Shown: piece after piece, positions 13,726-64,000 of the stretch
How the letters are laid out: each line of letters opens with the position of its first letter
Position numbering within the stretch: position 1 is the stretch's first letter
NCBI RefSeq assembly: GCF_000877395.1
Contig: NZ_JYFE01000060.1
Coordinates: 62,001-126,000, forward strand
Length of the DNA stretch: 64,000 nt
Direction: 5' to 3'
From: Jannaschia aquimarina
GTDB lineage: Bacteria; Pseudomonadota; Alphaproteobacteria; Rhodobacterales; Rhodobacteraceae
The notes under the pieces: model-generated
The model's database searches: none
What the model was told of the DNA's origin: nothing
What the model saw: only the letters and a program-made list of their open reading frames with translations
Made by a program: the position numbers and the translations under genes

Positions 13726-14503
13726 CCGTTCCCTCCTCCTGCTTGTCAGGCAGCATCCACCGCCAGAGTTTTTCGTCCGGCAGCGGGACGACCATGAACC
13801 AGTGTTCCAATAACGCGAGCGCGGTCAGGGCCGCCAGTAAGGCGAACCCCACCTCTTGCGCCGGGGCGGGGGCGGCGATCAGACGCTCCAGCCAGCAGGC
13901 CACGGCGAATGTCAGCGCCGTGACCGATGTCGGGAACAGCCAGTTCATCCGCGCCGCGCCGAAATGGCTGGGCAGATGACGCAGGCTGCTCGGGATGAAC
14001 TCGGTGTTCACCTTACGCACGCCCAGATAGAGGTTCAGCTTGGCGCTGATCCGCGCGGCGTAGAGCACCGCGAAGATCCACAAGCCGAACGTGTTGGCCG
14101 CGTCATGCGTCAACGCGATGATGGCGATCAGCGCCGCCGTCAGCGTCATCTCGTGATAGGCGACCGTGCCCCAGGCGCGGATGAACCGCTCCCAACCCGG
14201 GACGCCCGGCCGCGCGGGCCGGGTGTTGGGGCCGGTGATCATGCCGGTCAGAAAGGCCAGCTCGATCCAGCCCCACACCGCCAGCGCCGAAGCTGCGGCG
14301 AGGTAGACCTCCGCCGGATCCAGAACGCCCCGCGTGGCCCAGAGACCCCAGAAGCCCAGCCCCAGTATCGGCAGCGTCCCCAACGTCAGCGCCACGTGCC
14401 GGCCCCGCAGGTCGGCGCGGCGCACGGCCCAGAGGATCGCCCCGGTGGAGACCCACCAGGCGACCAGCGCGACCGCGCCCGCTATCCAGGGGCTCAGTAG
14501 CAC
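13712..14503 (-). CDS. puhE: Photosynthetic complex assembly protein PuhE
   Basis: A 263-residue polytopic membrane protein with about seven hydrophobic segments, matching PuhE (DUF3623). It contains a short hydrophilic loop [19 protein letters not shown]. PuhE influences reaction centre and bacteriochlorophyll accumulation in R. capsulatus; its molecular role is unknown. It overlaps acsF upstream by 10 bases and hemA downstream by 14 bases. Confidence 0.93.
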
Positions 14504-15618
14504 GGCTCCAAACGGGTCTGGACGGGCACCTCGTGCCGCTTGGCCGGGATCGCGTAGAGCCGGGCGAAGGCCGCGGCGGCCTTGGCCGACCCGGCCAGCC
14601 GCTTGAGCCTGCCGCCCAGACCTCCCTGCCGATCACCCTCGGCGATCTGCTCGTTGGCGGCCTGCAGCTTGCGCAGCGTCGGCAGCCAGGCGGGATGGTC
14701 GATGTCCAGCGTGATCGGGAAGACCTGCTCGGACAGGGCCGAGGTCTTCTCGAAGACGGACTGGGCATATTCCTCGGGATCGACGCCCAGCGCGGCGTGG
14801 AAGGCCGGCCGCTGGTGGTCGCGCACGAACATCGTGCCGTAGACCGCCGTCAGGAAGAACTTGATCCACCAGACGTTGCGCCCGCTGGTCAGCTTGGGAT
14901 CGGTCTTCATCAGCAGGGCGAAGGCCTCGCCATGGCTGAACTCGTCGTTGCACCATTCCTTGAACCACTTGAAGATCGGGTGGAACCGATGTTCCGGATG
15001 CTTCTCCAGGTGGCGGTAGATGGTGATGTACCGGGCGTAACCGATCTTCTCGGACAGGTAGGTCGCGTAGTAGATGAACTTGGGACGGAAGTAGGTGTAC
15101 TTCTTCTTCTGCGTCAGGAAGCCCAGGTTCACCGCGATCCCCGCTTCGCGCAGCGCGTCGTTGATGAAGCCCGCATGACGCGCCTCGTCCCGCGCCATCA
15201 GCTGGAACAGCGTGGTGATGTCGCTGTTGGACCCGCGGCGCTTCATCTCCTTGTAGAGGACGCAGCCGGAGAACTCGGCCGTGCAGGACGAGATCAGGAA
15301 GTCGATGAACTCGGCGCGAAGCTCAGGCTCCATGCCGTCCCAGTCGATGTGGTCCCAATCCTCGTTCTTGCGGAAATGACCCTTGTTGGGATCCGCCTTC
15401 ATCTGTGCGATCAACTCGTCCCAGTCCTTGCGCACGGGGGTCACGTCGATCGCGTCCATCTCGTCGAAATCGGTAGTGTAGAAGCGCGGTGTCAGCAGCG
15501 TGTTGCGCATCGCCACCTCGGTGGCGGTCTTGCTGTCAACGGGCGCGTGCATGTTCTCGGCGGCGAGGCCTTCCTCGGCCGTCGTGGCGTCGGCGGTGTG
15601 CTTGAGAGGCGCGTTCAT
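14494..15618 (-). CDS. acsF: Aerobic Mg-protoporphyrin IX monomethyl ester oxidative cyclase
   Basis: A 374-residue membrane-associated diiron enzyme forming the isocyclic ring E with O2. The paired diiron motifs are evident: an AEFSGCVLYKE helix, ARDEARHAGF, and a late NDEFSHGEAF. ATG 15618 was chosen because it overlaps the preceding gene's stop (ATGA) and gives family length; the open frame further upstream is out-of-frame reading of that gene. No anaerobic cyclase (bchE) is seen in the window, which fits an aerobic phototroph. Confidence 0.97.
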   Translation of the reverse strand: MNAPLKHTADATTAEEGLAAENMHAPVDSKTATEVAMRNTLLTPRFYTTDFDEMDAIDVTPVRKDWDELIAQMKADPNKGHFRKNEDWDHIDWDGMEPELRAEFIDFLISSCTAEFSGCVLYKEMKRRGSNSDITTLFQLMARDEARHAGFINDALREAGIAVNLGFLTQKKKYTYFRPKFIYYATYLSEKIGYARYITIYRHLEKHPEHRFHPIFKWFKEWCNDEFSHGEAFALLMKTDPKLTSGRNVWWIKFFLTAVYGTMFVRDHQRPAFHAALGVDPEEYAQSVFEKTSALSEQVFPITLDIDHPAWLPTLRKLQAANEQIAEGDRQGGLGGRLKRLAGSAKAAAAFARLYAIPAKRHEVPVQTRLEPCY

Positions 15619-51775: not shown

Positions 51776-53569
51776 TCACGACAGGTGGTGCACCTCCTGC
51801 AGACCGTAGACCGGCGTATCGATCCCGGCCTCCCGCGCTTTCAGTTGCAGCGCGAGGAACTGCGAATAATGCCGCGACTGGTGCAGGTTGCCGCCGTGGA
51901 ACCACAGCCCCTCCTGCTGGGTCGGCTTCCACATGTTGCGGAGCTCACCCTCCCACGGGCCGGGGTCCTTCGTCGTGTCGGAGCCGAGGCCCCAGACCTT
52001 GCCGACCTTGTCCGCAACATCCTGGCTGATCAATTGCGCCGCCCAGCCGTTCATCGAGCCATAGCCCGTCGCCAGGACGATCACGTCGGCCTCCAGCTCG
52101 GTGCCGTCATCCAGCTTGAGGCCGGTCTCGGTAATCTCTGTCACCTGACCGTGGGCCAGCTTGATCTTGCCGTCGGCGACAAGCTCCGACGCGCCGACGT
52201 CGATGTAGTAACCTGACCCCCGGCGGAGATACTTCATGAAGAGCCCGGTCTCGTCGTCGCCGAAATCCAGCTTGAACCCCGCCTTCTCCAACCGCTCGTA
52301 GAAGTCCTTGTCCCGCTCCTTCTGGCCGTCCGCGACGGCCTTCTGAACGGACGGCAACATGGCGTAAGGGATCGAAGCGAAGATCAGGTCGGCGGTATCG
52401 GTGTCGATCCCGTTGGCAACGGCCTCTTCGGAATAGAGCCCGCCCAGCGCCAGATCCATCAGCGTCTCGGACCGAGAGATATGGGTGGAGGACCGCTGCA
52501 CCATCGTGACGTCAGACCCCGCCTCGTAGAGCGCGGCCGAGATGTCATGGGCCGAGTTGTTCGATCCGACCACGACCACCTTCTTTCCGGCATAGGTATC
52601 AGGCCCCGGATGCTGGCTGGAATGATGGATGTCGCCCTTGAACCGGTCCATGCCGGGAAGGTCCGGGATGTTGGGAATACCGGACATGCCCGTGGCCAGC
52701 ACCAGATGCTTGGGCGTCAGGGTCATGGCCTCGCCGTCACGGTCGATCTCCACGACCCAATGGTCGGCCTTCTCGTCATAGCGGGCGGATCTGGCCTCGG
52801 TTCGCGCCCAGTAGGGCAACTCCATCACCTTGACGTAGCTTTCCAGCCAATCGCCCAGCTTGTCCTTGGGCGCGAAGACGGGCCAATGGTCGGGGAACGG
52901 GATGTAGGGCAGATGGTCATACCAGACCGGATCGTGCAGGCAGAGCGACTTGTACCGCCGCCGCCAGCTATCGCCCGCCCGGTCGTTCTTCTCGATCACG
53001 ACATGGGGCACCTCCAACCGGCGCAGACGGGCGCTGAGCGCGATACCGCCCTGTCCGCCCCCGACGATGACCACGAAGGGCTGTTCTTCCCGGCCAAGCC
53101 GCGCCTGTTCGTCGGCGCGCCGTTCGGACCAGGTCTTGCGGCCCGGATGACTGCCATGCTCCACGCCCGGTTCGCGTGTCGGACCGCGTTTCTCTTCGTA
53201 GCCCTTCAGTTCCTGCGCCGTGGTCAGCAGCGTGATCGCCCCATCGGGACCCAGTCGAAGATGGCCCTTGCCCCGCGCGACCTCGGTCTCGAAGGTCAGC
53301 CAGGCCTCGGCGGTTCCATCGGCTTCGGTCACATCGCCGTCGATCTGCCAGTTCCTCGGGCGGGCGTGATCGCGGGTCGCGCCCACCATGTCGGCGATGG
53401 CATCGCGCCCTTCCATCGTGCGGATGTTCCAGGTCAGCGCGATCAGGTCGCGCCAATAGCAGGTCGGCGCGAAGAGCTGGGCCACCTGATCCGGCGACCC
53501 GTTCTCGAGCGCATCGGCGAACTTGGCAAGCCAGGTCGAGACCCGGCCCTGCGGCGAAGCGATATCCAT
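51776..53569 (-). CDS. Flavin-containing monooxygenase with N-terminal NTF2-like domain
   Basis: A 597-residue FAD/NADPH oxygenase. Residues 1-125 look like an NTF2/SnoaL-type domain (WLAKFADALENGSPDQVAQL, FAPTCYWRDLIALTWNI). The FAD motif GGGQGG is at 170-175, an FMO-like FKGDIHHSSQHPG fingerprint near 314, and the NADPH motif VVVVGSNNSAHD near 335. ATG 53569 follows GGAGGAG; a start 15 bases upstream is possible. The substrate is unknown. It is transcribed alone. Confidence 0.88.
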   Translation of the reverse strand: MDIASPQGRVSTWLAKFADALENGSPDQVAQLFAPTCYWRDLIALTWNIRTMEGRDAIADMVGATRDHARPRNWQIDGDVTEADGTAEAWLTFETEVARGKGHLRLGPDGAITLLTTAQELKGYEEKRGPTREPGVEHGSHPGRKTWSERRADEQARLGREEQPFVVIVGGGQGGIALSARLRRLEVPHVVIEKNDRAGDSWRRRYKSLCLHDPVWYDHLPYIPFPDHWPVFAPKDKLGDWLESYVKVMELPYWARTEARSARYDEKADHWVVEIDRDGEAMTLTPKHLVLATGMSGIPNIPDLPGMDRFKGDIHHSSQHPGPDTYAGKKVVVVGSNNSAHDISAALYEAGSDVTMVQRSSTHISRSETLMDLALGGLYSEEAVANGIDTDTADLIFASIPYAMLPSVQKAVADGQKERDKDFYERLEKAGFKLDFGDDETGLFMKYLRRGSGYYIDVGASELVADGKIKLAHGQVTEITETGLKLDDGTELEADVIVLATGYGSMNGWAAQLISQDVADKVGKVWGLGSDTTKDPGPWEGELRNMWKPTQQEGLWFHGGNLHQSRHYSQFLALQLKAREAGIDTPVYGLQEVHHLS

Positions 53570-53678: not shown

Positions 53679-54542
53679 CTAGTCGCCCGGTTGCCACAGA
53701 CCATATTGGATCGCCTTGTTGCGAAGAAACGGAAGGCCACGCTCCAGAACCACGTCGCGGCTTTCGGCGACCGGGCGCCAGACGGCAAGGCCGTGCGCGA
53801 TCTCGGGAGGCATGTCGATGAAGCTCTCCATCGCGAGCCCGCCCTCGAAGCCGATCGCGGCCAGGGCGCCATAGACCTCGTCCCACCGGACATTCCCGGC
53901 CCCCGGTGTCCCCCGGTCGGACTCCGAGAGATGAATATAGGCCAGATGCTCTCGGGCCTCGAGGATCCCGAGCGCCATACCGCGCTCCTCGATATTCATG
54001 TGATAGGTGTCGAGGTGAAGGAAAAGGTTCGGCGCTCCGACCCGCTCGATCATTTCGACGCCTTGGCGCGCCGTGTTCAGAAGATGGGTCTCGTATCGGT
54101 TCACCGGCTCGATGCCGAAGCGCATGTCCAGCTTGGCCGCGTGGGCCGCCGCCGCATCCAGGGTGCGGGCAGCGTTATCCAGTTCGACCGCGGTCGGGGG
54201 GGCGCCGGTCGTCTCGCCGATGCCGCCGAAGGTCACGCCGGACAGGGCCTCGGCCCCCATCGCATGGGCCACGTCCAATGCATTCGTCAGGAAAGCGACC
54301 GCCCCCTCGGGTCCATGACGCGAGGGCCAGACCGCTTGGGGCAGACCGAGAGAGCAGACCGCCCGAAGTCCGGCCTTCTGCAGCAGGCCACGAGAATGGG
54401 CCGGATCGACGTTATCCGGCGACAAGAGCGCGATCTCGATGAAGTCGAAGCCGTGATCAACGGCCGCCGCGACGGCACGTTCGGCGCCCGCCCGATCCCA
54501 GGACATGGTCCACATGCTCGTATGAACGCCGAAGCCCTTCAT
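53679..54542 (-). CDS. D-tagatose/D-psicose 3-epimerase-family TIM-barrel ketose epimerase
   Basis: A 287-residue protein with family motifs GIEPVNRYETHLLNT, HLDTYHMNIEE, IHLSESDRGTPGAGNV and AMESF. The metal ligands fall at E145, D178, H204 and E239, spacings 33, 26 and 35, matching the four metal-binding residues of characterised ketose 3-epimerases. It should interconvert C3 epimers of ketoses. Its start overlaps the SorC regulator stop (ATGA), and it lies beside the kinase/cleavage operon, so it probably acts on the same substrate. Confidence 0.88.
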   Translation of the reverse strand: MKGFGVHTSMWTMSWDRAGAERAVAAAVDHGFDFIEIALLSPDNVDPAHSRGLLQKAGLRAVCSLGLPQAVWPSRHGPEGAVAFLTNALDVAHAMGAEALSGVTFGGIGETTGAPPTAVELDNAARTLDAAAAHAAKLDMRFGIEPVNRYETHLLNTARQGVEMIERVGAPNLFLHLDTYHMNIEERGMALGILEAREHLAYIHLSESDRGTPGAGNVRWDEVYGALAAIGFEGGLAMESFIDMPPEIAHGLAVWRPVAESRDVVLERGLPFLRNKAIQYGLWQPGD

Positions 54543-55477
54543 GCGTCATCCTCCATCAATGCCGTTGCCAGTGTCTCGTCCGCGATCAGCCGGTCCACGA
54601 ACCCCGCGCGAAGGACGGCGCGGGTCGCCCGTCTCTTCGCCGTTCCCGCGGCGAGCATCGTCACCTCCGACCGGCGGAGGTCATCCAACCCGATCGAAGG
54701 CGCGCGCTCGTTGAGATCCACGGGCGCAAGCGTGCCGTCCTCCCGGAAGAACTTGCCCGTCGTATCCGCCACCGCCCCGGCCGCCGCCAGCCGCGCCAGA
54801 TCGCCGTCATCCAGAACGCCCGACATCGACAGAAGAGAGCCGGGGCCGCCCTCGCCGACCGAGATCACCATGCGGGACGCCGTCCGCGCGACGTCCAGCG
54901 CCTCGCGGACCAGCCGCTGTGACTGGATCCGCGCGGCGTCTTCGGGGGTGTCGGCGAGGAAGGGCGCGGGCAGGAACAGAGCCTGCCCTCCGGCCGAGGC
55001 CGCGATACGCGCGCAGACGTCGATCGGCCCGTCATCGCCGGTTCGGACCATGGCCCCCATCAGCGAGACGACGCGCAGATCGGGATTTCGGCCCCCGGGC
55101 CAGGCATCGGCCATCGCGGCGAGCGTTCGGCCCCAGCCGACCCCCAACACGCCGGCCTCTCCGACGATCGCGTCGTCCAGCCATCGCGCCGCCACCGTCC
55201 CCACCGCGCGCCGCACGGCAGCGGGATCAGAACCTGGATCGGGGGCGACAAGGGCGTCCGACAGGCCGAAGCGCTCTCTCAACTCCTCTGCCAAAGCCAG
55301 GGTCGTGGCATTCTCATGATCCAGCGTGACCCGCACGAGGCCCGCCTCGCGGGCTTCGGACAACAGCCGCAGAACCTTGAAACGCGACAGGCCGAGACGC
55401 TTGCCGACCTCGTCCTGACTCAGCCCGCCGACATGGTAGAGCCAGGCCACCCGGACGCGCGTCTCCTCCCCCGCCAT
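54539..55477 (-). CDS. SorC-family sugar-binding transcriptional regulator
   Basis: A 312-residue regulator. The N-terminal helix-turn-helix is GLSQDEVGKRLGLSRFKVLR near residues 18-37; the rest is the SorC/DeoR sugar-phosphate-binding fold (GVGWGRTLAAMADAW, VVSLMGAMVRTGDDG, MVISVGEGGPGS). ATG 55477 follows AAGGAG. It is divergent from the FGGY kinase, with operator-like palindromes between, so it probably controls both directions and senses a phosphorylated pathway intermediate, as LsrR does. Confidence 0.92.
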   Translation of the reverse strand: MAGEETRVRVAWLYHVGGLSQDEVGKRLGLSRFKVLRLLSEAREAGLVRVTLDHENATTLALAEELRERFGLSDALVAPDPGSDPAAVRRAVGTVAARWLDDAIVGEAGVLGVGWGRTLAAMADAWPGGRNPDLRVVSLMGAMVRTGDDGPIDVCARIAASAGGQALFLPAPFLADTPEDAARIQSQRLVREALDVARTASRMVISVGEGGPGSLLSMSGVLDDGDLARLAAAGAVADTTGKFFREDGTLAPVDLNERAPSIGLDDLRRSEVTMLAAGTAKRRATRAVLRAGFVDRLIADETLATALMEDDA

Positions 55478-55510
55478 CGCCGTCTCCTTGACTCGTCGCA
55501 GGTTCGAGAT

Positions 55511-55542
55511 ACACAAATGTGTGTTGTCTGCACAATTGTGCA
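55511..55542. promoter_or_regulatory. Putative SorC-regulator operator
   Basis: A perfect 14-base palindrome TGCACAATTGTGCA (55529-55542) preceded by an imperfect one, ACACAAATGTGTG (55511-55523), in the 101-base divergent region. The local AT content is unusually high for this window. Confidence 0.6.
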
Positions 55543-55578
55543 GTTGCAGCAGAGCAGTCGCAGCGAGGGGAGGCGCAT

Positions 55579-57072
55579 GTGACGGGAACCCATGTGATCG
55601 GCATCGACGGCGGGACGGAAGGCCTGCGCGCCCGCGTCTTCGACCTGACAGGCCGGTCGCTTGGGGACCACTCCGCGCCCTACGAGACCGACTTTCCCGC
55701 GCCCGGTCGCGCCGAGCAGGACCCCGACGCGTGGTGGCGTGCCTGTGGAGAGGCCGTGCGCGGCGCGGTCGCCGCTTCGGGCGTGGACACGGGCAGCATT
55801 GCCGCCCTCGCCTGCGACACCACAAGTTGCACCGTCGTCGCGCTGGACGAAGACGGCGCGCCGCTCAGGCCATGCCTGCTCTGGATGGACGTCCGCGCCC
55901 ACGAGGAGGCGGCGGATATCCTCGCCACGGGCGATCCGGCCTTGCGGGTCAATGGCGCCGGGGCGGGACCGCTCTCACCGGAATGGATGCTGCCCAAGGC
56001 CTTGTGGATCAAACGGAACCAGCCTGACATCTTGGCACGCGCGACAAAGGTCGGCGAATACCAGGATTTCCTGACATTCCGACTGACGGGTCGCTGGTGC
56101 GCCTCGTTGAACAACCTGACGATGCGCTGGCACTATCAGACGCAGCATGGCGGATGGCCCGATAGCCTGCTCGCCCGCCTGGATCTGTCGGATCTACGCG
56201 AGAAGTGGCCCTCGGATATCGCCGCACCGGGGGAAGTGGTGGGCCCCCTGACACCGGCGGCGGCGGATCATCTGGGATTGTCCACCGGCGTTCAGGTCGT
56301 TCAGGGCGGGGCGGATGCCTTTATCGGAATGATCGGTCTGGGCGTCACGCAGCCGGGCGACCTCGCGCTCATCACCGGGTCGTCGCACCTGCAATTGGGC
56401 ATCGCCGCCGGAGAGACCCACGCGGCCGGTGTCTGGGGCACCTATGCCGATTGCGTCTACCCTGGTCGCCCGGTGATCGAGGGGGGCCAGACCTCGACCG
56501 GGTCGATCATCGCGTGGTTCAAGCGCAACTTCGCGCCCGGTACGCCTTACGACGACTTGAACGCCGCGGCTGCCGCCCTGCCTCCGGGGGCCGAAGGCCT
56601 GCTGGCGGTCGATCATTTCCAGGGCAACCGCACACCTCACACGGATGCGCTGGCCCGTGGCGCGATCACCGGCCTGACCCTGAAGCACAGCCCCGCCCAC
56701 GTCTATCGAGCCCTGATCGAAGGGGTTTGCCTGGGGACCCGCGCCATCGTCGACGCTTTCGGCGATGCCTTCGAAGCCAAGCGCATCGTCGTCGCGGGCG
56801 GCGCCACCAACGCGCCGTTCTGGTTGCAGATCCACGCCGACACGCTGGGCCTGCCGCTTGAGATCACCGAACAGCCAGAGGCGCCGTGCCTGGGCTCGGC
56901 GATCCTGGCCGCTTATGGCGCCGGGGCCTTCGACAGCATCGACGCGGGCTGCGCCGCGATGGTCCGCACGGCTCGGGTGATCGAGCCGGACATGGACGCG
57001 CACGCGGCCTACGCCCCGATCTACGACCGCTACCGAACGGCCTATCACGCCCTGAAAGAAGTTCGCGAATGA
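55579..57072 (+). CDS. FGGY-family carbohydrate kinase
   Basis: A 497-residue kinase. N-terminal GIDGGTEGLRARVFDLTG is the ATP-phosphate loop; catalytic Asp is D246 in VVQGGADAFIGMIGLG; the C-terminal VVAGGATNAPFWLQIHAD and PEAPCLGSAILAAYGAG match FGGY signatures. It resembles ribulo-/xylulokinase and LsrK groups; the substrate is not readable. GTG 55579 follows GGGGAGG; an upstream ATG would add 20 residues from the operator region. It overlaps the E1 alpha start (ATGA). Confidence 0.9.
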   Translation: MTGTHVIGIDGGTEGLRARVFDLTGRSLGDHSAPYETDFPAPGRAEQDPDAWWRACGEAVRGAVAASGVDTGSIAALACDTTSCTVVALDEDGAPLRPCLLWMDVRAHEEAADILATGDPALRVNGAGAGPLSPEWMLPKALWIKRNQPDILARATKVGEYQDFLTFRLTGRWCASLNNLTMRWHYQTQHGGWPDSLLARLDLSDLREKWPSDIAAPGEVVGPLTPAAADHLGLSTGVQVVQGGADAFIGMIGLGVTQPGDLALITGSSHLQLGIAAGETHAAGVWGTYADCVYPGRPVIEGGQTSTGSIIAWFKRNFAPGTPYDDLNAAAAALPPGAEGLLAVDHFQGNRTPHTDALARGAITGLTLKHSPAHVYRALIEGVCLGTRAIVDAFGDAFEAKRIVVAGGATNAPFWLQIHADTLGLPLEITEQPEAPCLGSAILAAYGAGAFDSIDAGCAAMVRTARVIEPDMDAHAAYAPIYDRYRTAYHALKEVRE

Positions 57073-58073
57073 GCCGGGCCAACGACGCACATATCGCGCG
57101 CTACCGCACCATGCGCCGGATCCGCACCTTCGAAGAGCGGGTGGGCGAGTTGTTCCTCAAGGGCGAAAGCGCGGGCTCGATGCTGCACCTCTCCATCGGA
57201 GAGGAGGCCGTGGTCGGCCTGACCGACCATATGCGCGACGGCGACACGTTCACGACGCATCACCGCGGTCACGGGATCTTTCTGGCCCGCGGGGCAGATC
57301 CGGCGCGGATGCTGGCCGAGATCGGGGGGCGGGGGTCCGGCTATTGCCGGGGCAAGGGCGGCTCGATGCACATCGCGGATCGCGGTCTGGGCCATCTGGG
57401 CGCCAATGCCATCGTAGGCGGTGGAATCCCCCATGTCGTGGGGGCCGGCATCTCTGCGCGAAATGCCGGGTCCGACGCGGTGTCTGTCGCCTTCTTCGGG
57501 GACGGCGCGATGAGCCAGGGCATCCTGTACGAAGCGAAGAACATGGCCGCGCTCTGGAAGCTGCCGGTCGTGTTCTGCTGCATCAACAACCAGTACGGGA
57601 TGGGGACGCGGGTGGACCGTTCGGCCGGACATCGCGACTTCCCGGCGCGTGCAACCGCATTCGGTTTGAACGGTGCACGCGCCGACGGTGCAGAGGTCGA
57701 AGAGGTCTTCGAGGCCGCGCAGGATGTGATGGACGGCGCCCGGAACGGCCGCGCCGGATTTCTGGAGATCGACGCCTATCGCTTCCACGGGCACGCGCGG
57801 ATGGACAAGTCGCCCTACCGCAGCCCCGAAGAAGAGGAGGAGGGCCGTCAGCGCGACCCCCTTGCCCGCGCGCGGAACCGGATCGGCGACGATATCACGC
57901 TCGACCGGATCGACGACGAGGCGGAAGCGGAGATGGACAAGGCGATGGAAGACGCGATCGCGGCGGCTCCTCCGGACCATGCGAGCATGTTCGAGGACGT
58001 CTATGCCGAGGGGACGCCCCCGCCGCGCCCGCAACGCGAAAGACTGATGGACATTCTGGGAGAGAGCGCGTGA
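57069..58073 (+). CDS. Thiamine-diphosphate dehydrogenase E1 alpha subunit, acetoin dehydrogenase (AcoA)-like
   Basis: A 334-residue protein. ThDP motif GDG at 144-146 through NN at 173-174 (FFGDGAMSQG then CINNQYG), preceded by THHRGHG at 63-69. This is the E1 alpha fold of 2-oxoacid and acetoin dehydrogenases. Together with the hydrolase-type E2 it fits the acetoin-cleaving branch, which attacks a methyl-ketone carbonyl. Coupled to the kinase and to E1 beta. Confidence 0.9.
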   Translation: MSRANDAHIARYRTMRRIRTFEERVGELFLKGESAGSMLHLSIGEEAVVGLTDHMRDGDTFTTHHRGHGIFLARGADPARMLAEIGGRGSGYCRGKGGSMHIADRGLGHLGANAIVGGGIPHVVGAGISARNAGSDAVSVAFFGDGAMSQGILYEAKNMAALWKLPVVFCCINNQYGMGTRVDRSAGHRDFPARATAFGLNGARADGAEVEEVFEAAQDVMDGARNGRAGFLEIDAYRFHGHARMDKSPYRSPEEEEEGRQRDPLARARNRIGDDITLDRIDDEAEAEMDKAMEDAIAAAPPDHASMFEDVYAEGTPPPRPQRERLMDILGESA

Positions 58074-59059
58074 CGACGACCTATCGTGACGCGCTTAGAC
58101 AAGCGCTCGTCGACGCGATGGAGGACGACGATTCCGTCATCCTCTTGGGCGAGGAGGTGGGGCTTTACGGGGGGGCCTATGGCGTGACCAAGGGCCTGCT
58201 CGACCGCTTCGGAGAGACGAGAGTCATCGACACGCCGATCTCGGAGCCCGGGATCGTCGGCGCCGCCATCGGCGCGGCGATGACCGGACTGCGGCCCGTG
58301 GCCGAGATCATGTATGTCGACTTCGCGGGCCTCGTCATGGACCAGCTTGCCAATCAGGCGGCGAAATCGCGCTACATGTTCGGAGGTCAGATCGGCGTGC
58401 CGATGGTTCTGCGAACGCAAGGGGGAACCGGACGGTCCGCCGCCGCACAGCACTCGCAGAGCCTGGAGGCATGGATGATGCACGTCCCCGGCCTGCGCCT
58501 CGCCATGCCCGGCACGGTTTCCGACGCCTACCATCTTTTGCGCGACGCCCTGCGCCAGCCCGATCCGGTCTGCTTCATCGAGCACAAGGGGCTCTACACC
58601 CTGAAGGGAGAGATCGGACCCGAGCCCGACGCGCCCTGGGGCCAGCCCGCGATCCGCCGCAAGGGGACGGATCTCACGATCGCCACCTATTCCCGGATGC
58701 TGCAGGAGGTCCTGAAGGCCGCCGAAGCCCTCGCGCCCTCGGTCGAGGTCGAAGTGATCGACCTGCGGACCCTGAACCCGCTGGAGGACGAGGTCCTGAT
58801 GGACAGCGTCCGGCGCACCGGCCGATGCCTGATCGTGACCGAGGCCGTCACGACGGGGTCCGTCGCCTCGGAAATCGCGGCGCGGGTGACCGAGCAGTGC
58901 TTCGACTGGCTGGAAGAGCCGCCGCTGCGCCTTGGCGGAGAAGACATCCCCGTTCCCGTGGCGCCGGCGCTGGAAGCCGCGTCGATCCCGGATGCGACCC
59001 TGATCGGGGAGACCGCCCGCTGGCTGGTCACGCGAGAGGCACCGTCATGGGCCGCGTGA
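58070..59059 (+). CDS. Dehydrogenase E1 beta subunit, AcoB-like
   Basis: A 329-residue transketolase-like beta subunit with GEEVGLYGGAYGVTKGLL, TPISEPGIVGAAIGAAM, and C-terminal half VIDLRTLNPLEDE. It forms the E1 heterotetramer with the preceding gene. GTG start overlapping its stop (GTGA). Ends overlapping the E2 gene by 13 bases. Confidence 0.92.
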   Translation: MTTTYRDALRQALVDAMEDDDSVILLGEEVGLYGGAYGVTKGLLDRFGETRVIDTPISEPGIVGAAIGAAMTGLRPVAEIMYVDFAGLVMDQLANQAAKSRYMFGGQIGVPMVLRTQGGTGRSAAAQHSQSLEAWMMHVPGLRLAMPGTVSDAYHLLRDALRQPDPVCFIEHKGLYTLKGEIGPEPDAPWGQPAIRRKGTDLTIATYSRMLQEVLKAAEALAPSVEVEVIDLRTLNPLEDEVLMDSVRRTGRCLIVTEAVTTGSVASEIAARVTEQCFDWLEEPPLRLGGEDIPVPVAPALEAASIPDATLIGETARWLVTREAPSWAA

Positions 59060-60231
59060 TACTCAAGCTGCCCCGGCTTGGGGAGACGATGGAAGAGGCG
59101 CGCGTCACGGAGTGGATCGTCGCGCCGGGTGCATCCTATCGGCGAGGCGATGTTCTGCTGGAGGTGGAGACGGACAAGACCGTCGTCGAGGTTCCCGCCC
59201 TCGCAGCCGGAACCCTGCTGGAACGGCTGGTCTCCGAAGGGGACACGATCGAGCTGGATCAGCCGATCGCCGAGGTCGAACAGGAGGCCGACGAGACCAA
59301 ATCGGACGTGCCGTCACCTTCGGGGCCGACCAGAGAACCGACCGCACCGGACGCATCGCGTGCCCGACGCGCTCGCGCTCCACGGCCGTCGGCGGACCGC
59401 GTTCCCGCCTCGCCTGCCGCCCGGGCGGAAGCGCGGCGGTTGGGTGTGTCCCTGGACGGGATCCGCGGGACAGGCCGTCGCGGCCGTATCACGGCGGCAG
59501 ACGTCGCAGGCGGTGCATCGGACGGCACGGTCGTCCTGATCCATGGGCTCTACGACGACCCGTCCGGCTGGCGCGGGCTGCCTGCGCGGCTGGCGAAGCG
59601 CGGCCTGAAGACCACAGCGCTCGCACTACCCGGTCACGGCGCCGGGGCGCCGCCGGTCGACAGCTTCGCCGCCGCAGCCGAGCAACTCTTGGAGCATCTG
59701 CCCGCAGGGCCGATCCATCTGGTCGGCCATTCCCTTGGCGCGGCGCTGGCCGCGCGCCTCGCGACGCGGCTCGGGGACCGGGTGCGCAGTCTGACGCTGT
59801 TTGCGCCGGCCGGGCTTGGCGCGAAGATCGACGACGGGTTCCTGACCTCGATGGCGAAGGCCCGCGATCCCGAAGCCCTGCGCGCCGCGATCGAGCAGCT
59901 CGACGGCGGACCGATCTCGGATGTCGCCCTGAGAGACCGGCTGGAGCGTCATCTCGACGGTCTGGAGGGCCGCGTGCTCCTGGCGAATGCGGTCGCGCGG
60001 CACGGCGTCCAGCAGATCGACGTGACCGGAGATCTGGCGTCCGCACCCTGCCCGGTCTCGGTCGTTTTCGGCACCGCGGACCGCGTTCTGGACTGGCGCG
60101 ACGTCGCGCACCTGCCTGCCGAGGCGCGCATTCACCTGATCCCGGGCGCGGGGCATCTGCCCCATCTCGTCCGGCCCGACCTTGCCGCCGCGCTGATCGC
60201 GCCCCGGCCAGACCTTGCGGAAACCGCTTGA
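59047..60231 (+). CDS. Lipoyl E2 with C-terminal alpha/beta-hydrolase domain, AcoC-like
   Basis: A 394-residue protein. The lipoyl domain has the lipoylated Lys at 44 ([12 protein letters not shown]). A Pro/Arg linker leads to a peripheral-subunit-binding domain ([26 protein letters not shown], about 118-152). The rest is an alpha/beta-hydrolase with [10 protein letters not shown], nucleophile [16 protein letters not shown] and GAGHLPHL, replacing the classical HxxxDG acyltransferase. This layout is that of acetoin dehydrogenase AcoC. No E3 gene is adjacent. Confidence 0.9.
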
Positions 60232-60304
60232 ACGGCGGAGCCCGCAATTTACCGTGCGTCATGCACGCCCCCGGTGGAGGCCGGGGCGACACAGGGAGGA
60301 AGAC

Positions 60305-61285
60305 ATGAAGAACCTGACAGTCACCGCGGCCGCATTGGCCACGACGATGCTGGCCGCCCCGGCCTTCGCCGACGCCCATGCCAAGCAGATGGCCACCGTC
60401 GTCAAGATCGACGGAATCGCCTGGTTCAACCGGATGCGGGAAGGCGTCGACGAATGGGCCGAGGAGACGGGGAACAACGCCTTCCTCGTGGGACCTGCCC
60501 AGGCCGACCCACAGCAGCAGGTCGCGCTGATCGAAGACATGATCGCGCAGGGCGTCGATGCGCTCTTGGTCGTGCCGATGTCGCCCGAGGCGATCGAGCC
60601 CGTTCTGGGCCGCGCGATGGAGCAGGGCATCACCGTCATCACGCACGAGGCGGCGAGCCAGCAGAACACCCAATACGACATCGAAGCGTTCCGGAACGAG
60701 GATTTCGGCGCCAACCTGATGGACCGCCTCGCCGCCTGCATGGGCGAAGAGGGCGAATATGCCGTCTTCGTCGGCTCTCTGGGCAGCCAGACCCACAACC
60801 AATGGGTCGACGGCGCCATCGCCCGCCAGGAAGAAGCCTACCCGAACATGACGCTTGTCGGCGACCGCAACGAGACGGCGGACGACCAGCAGCAGGCCTA
60901 TGCCCGTGCTCAGGAAGTCCTGCGGGCGCATCCCAACATCAAGGGCATGCAGGGCTCGGCCTCGACCGACGTGGCGGGGATCGGCCTCGCCATCGAAGAA
61001 CGCGGACTGGAAGACGAGACCTGTGTCTTCGGCACGTCGCTTCCTTCGATCGCCGGTCAGTACATGGAGACGGGCGCCGTTGACGGAATCGGCTTCTGGG
61101 ATCCGAAGATTGCCGGCAAGGCCATGAACGCAGTCGCGATGATGGTCATGAATGGCGAAGAGATCACCGACGGCATGGATCTCGGGCTTGAGGGCTACGG
61201 GAACATCACGCTCGACGGAAAGGTCATCTACGGCGAAGCCTTCGTCGACGTGGATGCGTCCAACATGGCCGATTACGACTTCTGA
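60305..61285 (+). CDS. LsrB/RhaS-type sugar ABC transporter substrate-binding protein
   Basis: A 326-residue periplasmic binding protein with signal peptide (residues 1-22, ending AFA). Type I fold. Segments [45 protein letters not shown] and the end SNMADYDF align by eye with LsrB-like proteins. At positions that bind AI-2 in LsrB some residues differ (for example Glu for Asp in the strand THEAAS), so AI-2 itself is not assured. AGGGAGGA precedes the ATG. Confidence 0.88.
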
Positions 61286-61335
61286 TCGGCGCGCGGGGGG
61301 CGGCATCGGCCGTCCCCCGGCAAACGGGAAATCCC

Positions 61336-62832
61336 ATGACCGACACGTCCGCCCCCTTGGTGACGCTCGAAGGCGTGACCAAGAGATATGCCGCCATAAC
61401 CGCCCTGTCCGAGGTCGACCTGACCATCCGCGCCGGAGAGGCGGTCTGTCTCGCTGGAGAGAACGGATCCGGCAAATCGACTCTGATCAAGGTCCTCGTC
61501 GGCGTCGAACGTCCGAGCGCGGGGCGCATCCTCTTCGACGGGGTGCCGCAGACACGGCTGACGCCGACCGCCGCGACCCGGGCCGGGATGCAGGTGATCT
61601 TTCAGGATTTCAGCCTGTTTCCGAACCTGTCGGTGGCCGAGAACATCGCCATGACGGCCGAGCGGGCGACAGGCGCGCGTCTCGTCCATCGTCGCCGCGC
61701 CCGTGAACGTGCGCGGGAGGTGCTAGACCGGATCGGCGTCGATCTGGACCTCGACGCGCGGGTCGAACGCCTGCCCGTCGCGCACAAGCAACTCGTCGCA
61801 ATCTGCCGCGCGCTCGCCGCCGATGCGCGCCTCATCATCATGGACGAACCCACCACCGCTCTGACCGAGCGCGAGGTCGCCCGGCTGCTCGATCTGATCC
61901 GCAGGCTGAAGGCCGATGGCGTGGCCGTCCTGTTCGTCTCTCACAAGCTGGCCGAGGTCTTGGAAGTCTGCGAGCATGTCGTCGTCCTGCGCAACGGCGA
62001 AAAGGTCGCCGATGGCCCGGCAGAGACCTTCGATGCCGCCTCCCTGACCCGGGCGATGACCGGCCGCGACGTGGCCGAGACCCCGCCCGAGCCGCTCGAT
62101 CCCTCCGCGTCGGACCTTCTTAAGGTCGAAAACCTCACGAAGGACGGCGCGTTCCGCGATGTGTCGCTGACCCTGCGCGCGGGGGAGGTGCTTGGCGTGG
62201 CAGGCCTGCTCGGCTCCGGCCGGACATCGCTGGCCAAGGCGTTGTTCGGACTTGCCACCCCGGACAGCGGTCGCGTGACGCTTGACGGGACGGACGTGCC
62301 GTTGGGCGACCCCATCGCGGCGGCGGGGGCCGGGATCGGCTACGTGCCGGAAGACCGCCTGACCGAGGGCCTGTTCCTGGAACAATCGATCGCGCGCAAC
62401 ATCGCGGTCGGCCGGCTCGAAGCCCACGCATCCGGCGGCGTCCTGAACCTGCGCGACCTCTGGGAGGAGGCCGCCGAATGGCTGAAACGCCTGTCCGTGA
62501 AAGCGCCCGACCCGCAGGCGCCGGTACGATCACTGTCCGGCGGCAATCAACAGCGTGTCGTGCTCGCACGCTGGATGGCGCGTCAGCCCCGCGTCCTGAT
62601 CCTGAACGGACCGAGCGTCGGGGTGGATGTCGGCTCCAAGGCAGAGATCCACGCCATCATCTCAGACCTCGCCGCACGCGGTCTGGGCGTGATCGTCATC
62701 TCCGACGACCTGCCAGAGCTTCTGGGCACCTGCCACCGCATCCTCGTCATGAAGGCTGGCGTGATTACCGACGAGGTCGCCGGCGGCGAAGGCATCACCG
62801 AAGACGACCTGAGCCACAGGCTGGCCTCGTGA
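61336..62832 (+). CDS. Sugar ABC transporter ATPase, RbsA/LsrA type
   Basis: A 498-residue tandem nucleotide-binding protein. NBD1: Walker A GENGSGKST, Walker B LIIMDEPTTALTE. NBD2: degenerate Walker A GLLGSGRTSLAK, signature LSGGNQQRVVLARWM, and Walker B reading VLILNGPSVGVDVG, in which the usual Asp and catalytic Glu are Asn and Gly. NBD2 is therefore probably hydrolysis-deficient, a known trend in this family. Fifty bases after the binding protein. Confidence 0.93.
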   Translation: MTDTSAPLVTLEGVTKRYAAITALSEVDLTIRAGEAVCLAGENGSGKSTLIKVLVGVERPSAGRILFDGVPQTRLTPTAATRAGMQVIFQDFSLFPNLSVAENIAMTAERATGARLVHRRRARERAREVLDRIGVDLDLDARVERLPVAHKQLVAICRALAADARLIIMDEPTTALTEREVARLLDLIRRLKADGVAVLFVSHKLAEVLEVCEHVVVLRNGEKVADGPAETFDAASLTRAMTGRDVAETPPEPLDPSASDLLKVENLTKDGAFRDVSLTLRAGEVLGVAGLLGSGRTSLAKALFGLATPDSGRVTLDGTDVPLGDPIAAAGAGIGYVPEDRLTEGLFLEQSIARNIAVGRLEAHASGGVLNLRDLWEEAAEWLKRLSVKAPDPQAPVRSLSGGNQQRVVLARWMARQPRVLILNGPSVGVDVGSKAEIHAIISDLAARGLGVIVISDDLPELLGTCHRILVMKAGVITDEVAGGEGITEDDLSHRLAS

Positions 62833-62866
62833 GGATCGACATGGACCAGATACCATGGAGGCAGGC

Positions 62867-63856
62867 GTGAAATCATTCGACTGGGCCCGCAACGAAGTGC
62901 TCGTCTTCGGTGTGATCGTCGCCTTCTGCGTGCTCGCCGCCGTGTCCGATCCGAACTTCTTGTCGATCCCGACCCTGATCGACCTGATGCGAAACGGGAT
63001 CGTTCTGGGCATCCTGGCCGTCGCCGCCATGGTGGTGCTTGTCTCTGGGGGGATCGACGTCAGCTTCACCGCCGTCGCGGCCTTTGCCATGTACACGACC
63101 ACGGTGATCCTGCGTGACGTGGCGCCCGATCTGCCCTGGCCCGTGGCCTTTGCGGTGGCGACCGCGATCGGTGCGGCGCTGGGCGCGATCAACGGTGTCC
63201 TGATCGCCGTCTTCGGCCTGCCGACCCTCATCGTGACGCTGGGCACACTGTCGGTCTTTCGCGGTTTCCTTCTGACCTTCGTGGGCACGGTCCAGATTTC
63301 AAACCTGCCATCCGGGATGCGGGACTTCAGTCGCCTGATGATGATCCGGGGGACGAACTCGGACGGCAGCTTCTATTCGCTGCCCTGGGCCTTCGCTTTC
63401 CTTGTGGCGCTGGTCATCCTGACCTGGTTCATCCTGAACCGCACCATGCTGGGCCGGTCCATCTATGCCATCGGCGGCGCCCCCGAAAGCGCGCGCCGCA
63501 TCGGGATCGACGTCACGAAGACGCAGATGTTCATCTACATCTATGTCGGTGCGTTGGCCGGATTGGCCGGGATCATCCACGCCTCGACCGCGCGCATCGC
63601 CAACCCCTTCGACCTCGTGGGCCTGGAACTGAGCGTGATCGCCGCCGTCGTCCTGGGCGGCGCACGCCTGACCGGCGGCGTCGGCACGCTGACGGGGACA
63701 TTGCTGGGGGTCGCGCTGATCGTGCTGGTCCGGAACTCTCTGATCGTGATCGGCATCCCGTCGACCTGGCAATCGGTCACGATCGGCGCGCTGATCCTTC
63801 TGGGAACCGGCCTGCCCGCCTGGCAGGCGAAACGGGCGGAGGCACGCGCCGCATGA
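62867..63856 (+). CDS. Sugar ABC transporter permease, RbsC type, first copy
   Basis: A 329-residue permease with about ten hydrophobic segments, including LVSGGIDVSFTAVAAFAMYT and AVVLGGARLTGGVGTLTGTL, the BPD_transp_2 signatures. GTG 62867 follows GGAGG by 5 bases; an ATG at 62855 is the alternative. It overlaps the next permease as ATGA. Two separate permeases match the LsrC/LsrD and RhaP/RhaQ arrangement. Confidence 0.92.
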   Translation: MKSFDWARNEVLVFGVIVAFCVLAAVSDPNFLSIPTLIDLMRNGIVLGILAVAAMVVLVSGGIDVSFTAVAAFAMYTTTVILRDVAPDLPWPVAFAVATAIGAALGAINGVLIAVFGLPTLIVTLGTLSVFRGFLLTFVGTVQISNLPSGMRDFSRLMMIRGTNSDGSFYSLPWAFAFLVALVILTWFILNRTMLGRSIYAIGGAPESARRIGIDVTKTQMFIYIYVGALAGLAGIIHASTARIANPFDLVGLELSVIAAVVLGGARLTGGVGTLTGTLLGVALIVLVRNSLIVIGIPSTWQSVTIGALILLGTGLPAWQAKRAEARAA

Positions 63857-64000
63857 GCCGCATCCTGCATTCCACCGAAGGGCGCCTGGCCCTGATCACG
63901 ATAGTGGTCTTCGTGCTGATGGCGGCGCTTTCGCCCGAACGGTTCCTGTCGCCTCAGAACCTCACCTCTATGGCGTTCCAGTTTCCCGAATTCGCCATCC
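63853..64000 (+). CDS. Second sugar ABC transporter permease, 5' part only
   Basis: ATG overlapping the previous stop; 49 codons are visible before the window ends. The N-terminus (LHSTEGRLALITIVVFVLMA, then PERFLSPQNLTSMAFQFPEF) is that of an RbsC/LsrD-type permease with its first membrane helix. The rest lies beyond base 64000. Confidence 0.85.
   Translation, partial: MSRILHSTEGRLALITIVVFVLMAALSPERFLSPQNLTSMAFQFPEFAI

Follow-up and report, generated by a model that had tools for sequence, protein, structure and literature searches.

A conserved alphaproteobacterial gene cluster that may couple ketopentose uptake to a thiamine diphosphate-dependent E1/E2 complex

Introduction

D-Ribulose uptake systems have been described in Citrobacter rodentium (Rbl) and in enterohaemorrhagic Escherichia coli (EHEC; Aau). 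The substrate-binding protein (SBP) AauA, whose structure is PDB entry 9i1m, is reported to bind D-ribulose with a KD of 1.98 µM and to contact it through Lys37, Trp43, Glu118, His167, Glu196 and Ser223, while the Rbl system is reported to pair an Aau-like transporter with an FGGY-family D-ribulokinase (PMC12307932). Here we analyse a gene cluster of Jannaschia aquimarina that starts at position 53679 of the window, i.e. the whole 64,000-nucleotide stretch under study (G000:C60:62001-126000, in a genome of 4.1 Mb; a C60 coordinate equals the window position plus 62000). The cluster combines a sugar kinase and an ATP-binding cassette (ABC) transporter with an E1/E2 complex dependent on thiamine diphosphate (ThDP).

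Gene content and conservation

Our best explanation, which we put forward tentatively, is that the cluster scavenges a D-ribulose-like ketopentose and splits its phosphate by means of a ThDP-lipoyl E1/E2 complex. Protein families were assigned with Pfam and NCBIfam models, and NCBIfam scores are given against the model cut-off. The minus strand encodes a ketose 3-epimerase resembling D-tagatose 3-epimerase (53679..54542; Pfam AP_endonuc_2) and a SorC/DeoR-family sugar-binding regulator (54539..55477; Pfam Sugar-bind, 180 bits). Divergently, the plus strand encodes an FGGY pentulokinase (55579..57072; presumed start GTG), the E1 alpha subunit (57069..58073; Pfam E1_dh, 201 bits), the E1 beta subunit (58070..59059; Transket_pyr and Transketolase_C; NF006667, 341 bits against a cut-off of 321) and an AcoC-type E2 with lipoyl, E3-binding and alpha/beta hydrolase domains (59047..60231; Pfam and the acetoin dehydrogenase E2 model). 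These are followed by the periplasmic SBP (60305..61285; Peripla_BP_4), a sugar ABC ATPase with two ABC domains (61336..62832; Pfam and NCBIfam), permease 1 (62855..63856; Pfam BPD_transp_2) and the start of permease 2 (63853..64000), which is cut by the window end and stops 812 bases beyond it. Past the window, permease 2 is followed on the same strand by DhaK (C60 126809-127810; model run on the orthologue in L048) and DhaL (C60 127807-128409; model run on the protein itself), and on the minus strand by an aldo-keto reductase (C60 128433-129506; AKR model run on the protein itself). The eight gene families and positions listed in an earlier note on this DNA were all confirmed by Pfam and NCBIfam, although the cluster proved larger than noted there.

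The order epimerase-regulator, divergent from kinase-E1 alpha-E1 beta-E2-SBP-ATPase-permease 1-permease 2-dhaK-dhaL, is seen again in named records from several genera (L044, L045 and L047-L050 among them), which argues that the layout is not due to chance. Among 198 genomes of the family, seven besides J. aquimarina had E1 alpha matches of 60-75% identity and the next among the matches listed had 47%; this gap sets the orthologues apart as a distinct group. A scan of named genomes yielded 49 loci, mainly from Rhodobacteraceae and other Alphaproteobacteria. The full census comprised 60 loci, including six plasmid loci, after removal of L036 and L055 (repeats of L053 and L037) and exclusion of the J. 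aquimarina paralogue L043.

At a threshold of at least 55% identity, an E1 alpha orthologue was present in 58 of the 60 census loci. These 58 loci held the kinase in 38 cases, E2 in 54, a window-type SBP in 19, and DhaK and DhaL in 21 each. All 19 loci with a window-type SBP had the kinase, both E1 subunits and E2, and the kinase and E1/E2 travel as one unit beside other transporters too. DhaK occurred in 14 of these 19 loci, where it is 80-86% identical; in the other five (L054, L058, L060, L068, L070) the available stretch stops within or before the transporter genes. Literature searches retrieved no description of this SBP-kinase-E1-E2-DhaKL cluster, and the note's claim of an undescribed catabolic system holds in the sense of an uncharacterised cluster.

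Orthologues of E1 alpha and E1 beta (56-60%) were also seen in marine single-cell genomes and metagenome-assembled genomes (MAGs; L072-L074, L076-L078, L083, L085), which gave no FGGY kinase match at the census threshold; PfkB, Gfo/Idh-type or short-chain dehydrogenase/reductase (SDR) genes were recognised by eye nearby in several of them. E2 was matched in all marine loci except L081, but E2 was called by an identity threshold without a coverage filter, and these matches possibly cover the lipoyl domain only.

The binding protein and its likely ligand

The nearest solved relatives of the window SBP are 5bra (282 bits), 9i1m (196 bits) and 3d02 (189 bits), and PDB entries that bind autoinducer-2 (AI-2) score 54-99 bits. 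The six AauA contacts align to K34, W40, E115, H164, D193 and S220 of the window SBP; five are identical and Glu196 is replaced by Asp. All six residues are invariant in 11 aligned SBPs. The same positions read K F D Q N A in two AI-2 proteins and K W E Q D M in 5bra. In the published account of AauA, Glu196 and Ser223 are assigned to the C5 hydroxyl of a ligand described as a ring (PMC12307932). Because the C5 oxygen closes a furanose, the group at these residues may instead be the C1 hydroxymethyl. The window SBP retains the acidic and Ser residues (D193, S220) that would hold a terminal hydroxyl, whereas the two AI-2 proteins have Asn and Ala there, presumably at the position of the AI-2 methyl group. 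The conserved pair therefore favours an ordinary ketopentose and disfavours AI-2. Taken together, the pocket residues point to a ligand resembling D-ribulose; a 1-deoxyketose appears less likely, the pair being only suggestive evidence against it.

Other pockets occur among related SBPs. The combination K W E H N A was found in DhaKL clusters of Sinorhizobium meliloti, Labrenzia, Paracoccus and Ponticoccus and in an Aureimonas SBP with no DhaKL genes in view, and K W E Q D M in a Pacificitalea SBP beside rbsK and deoC. In L135, L136, L137 and L139, related SBPs (51-53%) of this K W E H N A type occur alongside DhaK/DhaL genes and a SorC-DhaK fusion; perhaps these loci import a shorter or 1-deoxy ketose that is phosphorylated by DhaKL. 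D-Apiose or apulose was considered as a ligand of the window SBP, but 5ibq, which we take to be a D-apiose-binding SBP, matches it with only 32.7 bits. SupABCD, through which S. meliloti takes up psicose (PMC4961836), was also considered, and no tie to the window SBP family was established.

Kinase, epimerase and operator

The FGGY kinase appears nearest to pentulokinase models, scoring 287 bits with XylB (xylulokinase), 283 bits with ribulokinase and 172 bits with the AI-2 kinase; none of these scores reaches the cut-off. The epimerase matches the D-tagatose 3-epimerase of PDB 7dz2 with 408 bits and the NCBIfam D-psicose 3-epimerase model with 145 bits (cut-off 300), in support of an enzyme of the kind named in the earlier note.

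A palindrome, TGCACAATTGTGCA, lies between the regulator and the kinase (55529..55542, no strand assigned) and is a probable operator. It recurs exactly at a like place in L044, L046 and L050, with near copies in L045 and L060. In the remaining 11 of the 16 divergent regulator pairs scanned, the palindromes found (at least 12 of 14 positions matching) did not include it. The exact sequence is present only once in the J. aquimarina genome (G000:C60:117529-117542), so that the search for exact copies revealed no further regulon members.

The E1/E2 complex

An E1 tree (FastTree, 64 proteins) was rooted on the pyruvate dehydrogenase (PDH) of J. aquimarina and included only loci with both subunits called, which leaves the marine group outside it. 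The tree separates 38 orthologues from the acetoin dehydrogenase references and PDH, though the 38-member node has a support of only 0.55. Within it, an S. meliloti-type subclade (8 members) and a window-type subclade (21 members) each have a support of 1.0, and the census loci that hold the kinase together with E1 (38 of 58) span both. Four loci (L038, L040, L042, L068) combine a window-type transporter (permease 1, 70-72%) with an S. meliloti-type kinase (58-59%) and E1 alpha (61-65%), which suggests that the kinase-E1-E2 unit was joined to the window-type transporter more than once, or was replaced. The presence of two E1 subclades with one transporter module argues that the coupling between them is functional.

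The best-scoring model for E2 is PRK14875 (acetoin dehydrogenase E2), at 273 bits against a cut-off of 307, and the closest groups beyond the E1 orthologues include acetoin dehydrogenase E1. No E3 gene was seen in the cluster, and we therefore assume that a housekeeping E3 is used. One E1 group (L064, L065, L069, L086, L089) gave no kinase matches and has some or all of galactarate-dehydratase-like, aldo-keto reductase and hydroxyacyl-CoA-dehydrogenase-like genes as neighbours; hence a phosphorylated ketose may not be the substrate of E1 in every case. Elsewhere in J. aquimarina, a further E1-E2 cluster that includes a SorC regulator (L043 8615-12918, G000:C17; E1 alpha 43%) adjoins genes that look like a MalK-type ABC transporter and a PfkB kinase.

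Neighbouring genes

Upstream of the cluster, much of the window (4519-48959) is taken up by photosynthesis-cluster-like genes (bch, crt, puf), recognised by eye. A flavin monooxygenase-like gene (51776-53569) adjoins the epimerase, with every NCBIfam score far below cut-off; by eye, its start is resembled by L048 51-1850, near the aldolase end of the L048 cluster. A FucU/RbsD-like gene and a PfkB-like kinase gene (C60:140146-141511), again recognised by eye, lie downstream of the cluster at a distance of about 12 kb. An Rfam scan of the window gave no matches at the gathering score.

Proposed route and its significance

In the route that we favour, the SBP and ABC transporter would import a D-ribulose-like ketopentose, the 3-epimerase would interconvert C3 epimers of the ribulose/xylulose type, and the FGGY kinase would phosphorylate the ketopentose at C5. 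E1/E2, presumably with the housekeeping E3, would then use CoA and NAD to cleave the ketose phosphate between C2 and C3, giving glyceraldehyde 3-phosphate and a two-carbon acyl-CoA, which would be glycolyl-CoA if C1 bears a hydroxyl. DhaKL may phosphorylate a small unphosphorylated fragment such as glyceraldehyde. We take the kinase, E1 and E2 to work in sequence because their genes stay together with other transporters and dehydrogenases as well. A wider proposition, which we regard as possible but hold with less assurance, is that the complex parallels phosphoketolase in an oxidative form that acylates CoA. Such a ThDP-lipoyl E1-E2, found in sugar operons of several alphaproteobacterial groups, would split pentulose 5-phosphate at C2-C3 into glycolyl-CoA (or acetyl-CoA from a 1-deoxypentulose) and glyceraldehyde 3-phosphate while capturing NADH.

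Should a sugar or its phosphate prove to be the substrate of E1/E2, complexes of the 2-oxo-acid-dehydrogenase type would join aldolases, transketolases and phosphoketolases in sugar breakdown. The kinase-E1-E2 unit, which occurs beside several transporters across Rhodobacteraceae, rhizobia and other Alphaproteobacteria, offers proteins that can be tested directly, and comparing the pocket residues suggests a concrete first ligand to try.

Several points weigh against the favoured route. AauA is a remote relative of the window SBP (196 bits; 29% identity in the Foldseek alignment), and the pocket match is therefore no proof of the ligand. LsrB structures rank 4-7 among the best Foldseek matches of the predicted SBP structure (mean pLDDT 70.5; used only to find PDB titles). 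D-Ribulose enters the pentose phosphate pathway with a kinase only, so that a cleaving complex seems superfluous; no gene for the use of glycolyl-CoA was recognised in the cluster, and E1/E2 look like an acetyl-forming complex. For DhaKL the route offers little explanation, despite the close conservation of DhaK in 14 SBP loci. Finally, the cluster is tied to the genes of 5-deoxyribose salvage, a link that the route does not explain.

Alternative substrates

An unlikely alternative, though the one that survives best, is that the imported sugar is a 1-deoxypentulose (1-deoxy-D-ribulose or -xylulose), which after epimerisation and phosphorylation would be cleaved by E1/E2, yielding acetyl-CoA and glyceraldehyde 3-phosphate. 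The earlier note had proposed an imported 1-deoxyketose; the AauA-like pocket with its acidic/Ser pair weakens this part of the claim, whereas the resemblance of E1 and E2 to an acetyl-forming enzyme still speaks for it, and acetyl-CoA as a product requires no extra genes. A RuBisCO-like isomerase of R. rubrum yields 1-deoxyketose phosphates, and a RuBisCO-like protein (RLP) encoded near MtnK in five relatives could do the same if it resembles that isomerase. At E 1e-10, however, an RLP was found in only seven of the 23 carriers (one match being weak, at 29% identity) and was missing from 16, including J. aquimarina, and RLP was rejected as a source of 1-deoxyketose phosphate for the cluster. 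RLP scores were 186 and 176 of 409 bits with MtnW in L104 and L103, and 74.7 and 82.5 of 700 bits with OiaX. A split transketolase and an RLP were seen beside 5-deoxyribose-type genes in L110, L111, L120, L121 and L122, with MtnK-MtnA in view in L120-L122 and, for L110 and L111, in L103/L104; in L121 this island continues into the aldo-keto reductase, dhaL and dhaK of a window-type cluster.

Rather less probable is that E1/E2 serves 5-deoxyribose salvage (MtnK-MtnA-FucA), either by oxidising the C2 aldehyde released by the aldolase to an acyl-CoA or by converting 7-deoxysedoheptulose to glycolyl-CoA and 5-deoxyribose. A kinase-isomerase-aldolase route to dihydroxyacetone phosphate (DHAP) and acetaldehyde has been published (PMC6079011), and the excretion of both 5-deoxyribose and 7-deoxysedoheptulose by a cyanobacterium has been reported (PMC8261047). 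MtnK, above its cut-off in 28 of the 198 family genomes, was present in all eight carriers of the E1 orthologue but in only 20 of the 190 other genomes (one-sided Fisher test, p 6e-8, ignoring relatedness, though each genome represents a separate genus). It was found in 20 of the 23 distinct carriers searched (G205, a repeat of G111, being left out of the count) and lies within seven of the 58 E1 alpha locus stretches: MtnK, MtnA and a FucA-like aldolase directly follow the epimerase in L048 and L049, MtnK and MtnA occur in L052, L061 and L080, MtnK alone stands at the stretch end in L059, and mtnK-mtnA-fucA lies inside the cluster in L068. Yet in three genomes that carry the complete cluster, two of them Jannaschia species and the third a MAG (G198, G199, G201), neither MtnK nor MtnA was matched over E 0.001, and the kinase stands beside E1 in loci with no mtn genes in view. 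J. aquimarina itself has a DHAP-shunt operon elsewhere (L106 5311-13037, G000:C47), comprising mtnK-mtnA-fucA, a SorC-type regulator and an ABC transporter of its own.

Comparison with known systems

It is very unlikely that the cluster is a plain acetoin dehydrogenase operon adjoining an unrelated sugar operon. The domain make-up of AcoA, AcoB and AcoC is indeed matched by E1 alpha, E1 beta and E2, and the reference aco cluster of Paracoccus versutus (L146) likewise has both E1 subunits and an E2 annotated as that of acetoin dehydrogenase. But E1 alpha is 44.7% identical to its L146 counterpart, and the AcoX-like gene, sigma-54 regulator and butanediol dehydrogenase of L146 are absent from the window cluster, which has a sugar transporter and kinase in place of these neighbours. 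The association of the kinase with E1 across two E1 subclades also argues against mere adjacency.

The AI-2-like compound and lsr-like operon of the earlier note did not hold up, and an AI-2 uptake system in which the thiolase LsrF is replaced by a ThDP complex is barely credible: SBP, kinase and regulator belong to the same broad families as their Lsr counterparts and match the LsrB, LsrK and LsrR models, but all far below cut-off (118 of 384, 172 of 528 and 112 of 486 bits), and five of six AI-2 contacts differ. Of the LsrB contacts, which we take to be K35, D116, D166, Q167, P220 and A222 (the letters agree with 5gta), only the K is kept; the others are E, T, H, S and S, one of these changes being merely Asp to Glu. 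AI-2 was rejected as a ligand on these grounds. The window cluster further differs from Lsr in its additional ThDP complex and DhaKL; neither LsrF nor LsrG was recognised among its genes, no model having been run for either. Genes named 'lsrB' have been reported in three Rhodobacter genomes (PMC2561040).

The cluster on S. meliloti pSymB (L129), uncharacterised as far as we found, and its relatives (L130-L134) share with the window cluster a SorC regulator, an ABC transporter, E1, E2 and an FGGY kinase. Unlike the window cluster, they carry one or two SDR dehydrogenases, as in a polyol variant, and gave no epimerase or DhaKL matches; the L129 binding protein is RbsB-like. L129 differs from its relatives in that the annotation divides the E2 position (13985-15303) in two, with one part called a hypothetical protein and the other an alpha/beta hydrolase.

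Rbl and Aau share with the window cluster a related SBP with the same contact positions and an ABC transporter and, in Rbl, an FGGY-family kinase. As described in the consulted parts of the published account, they consist of a transporter, a kinase and a KpsF-like isomerase, with no E1/E2, DhaKL or tagatose-3-epimerase-type enzyme named there (PMC12307932). The window cluster may be regarded as a variant of a ketopentose utilisation operon that carries a ThDP-lipoyl complex and for which the literature searches gave no description.

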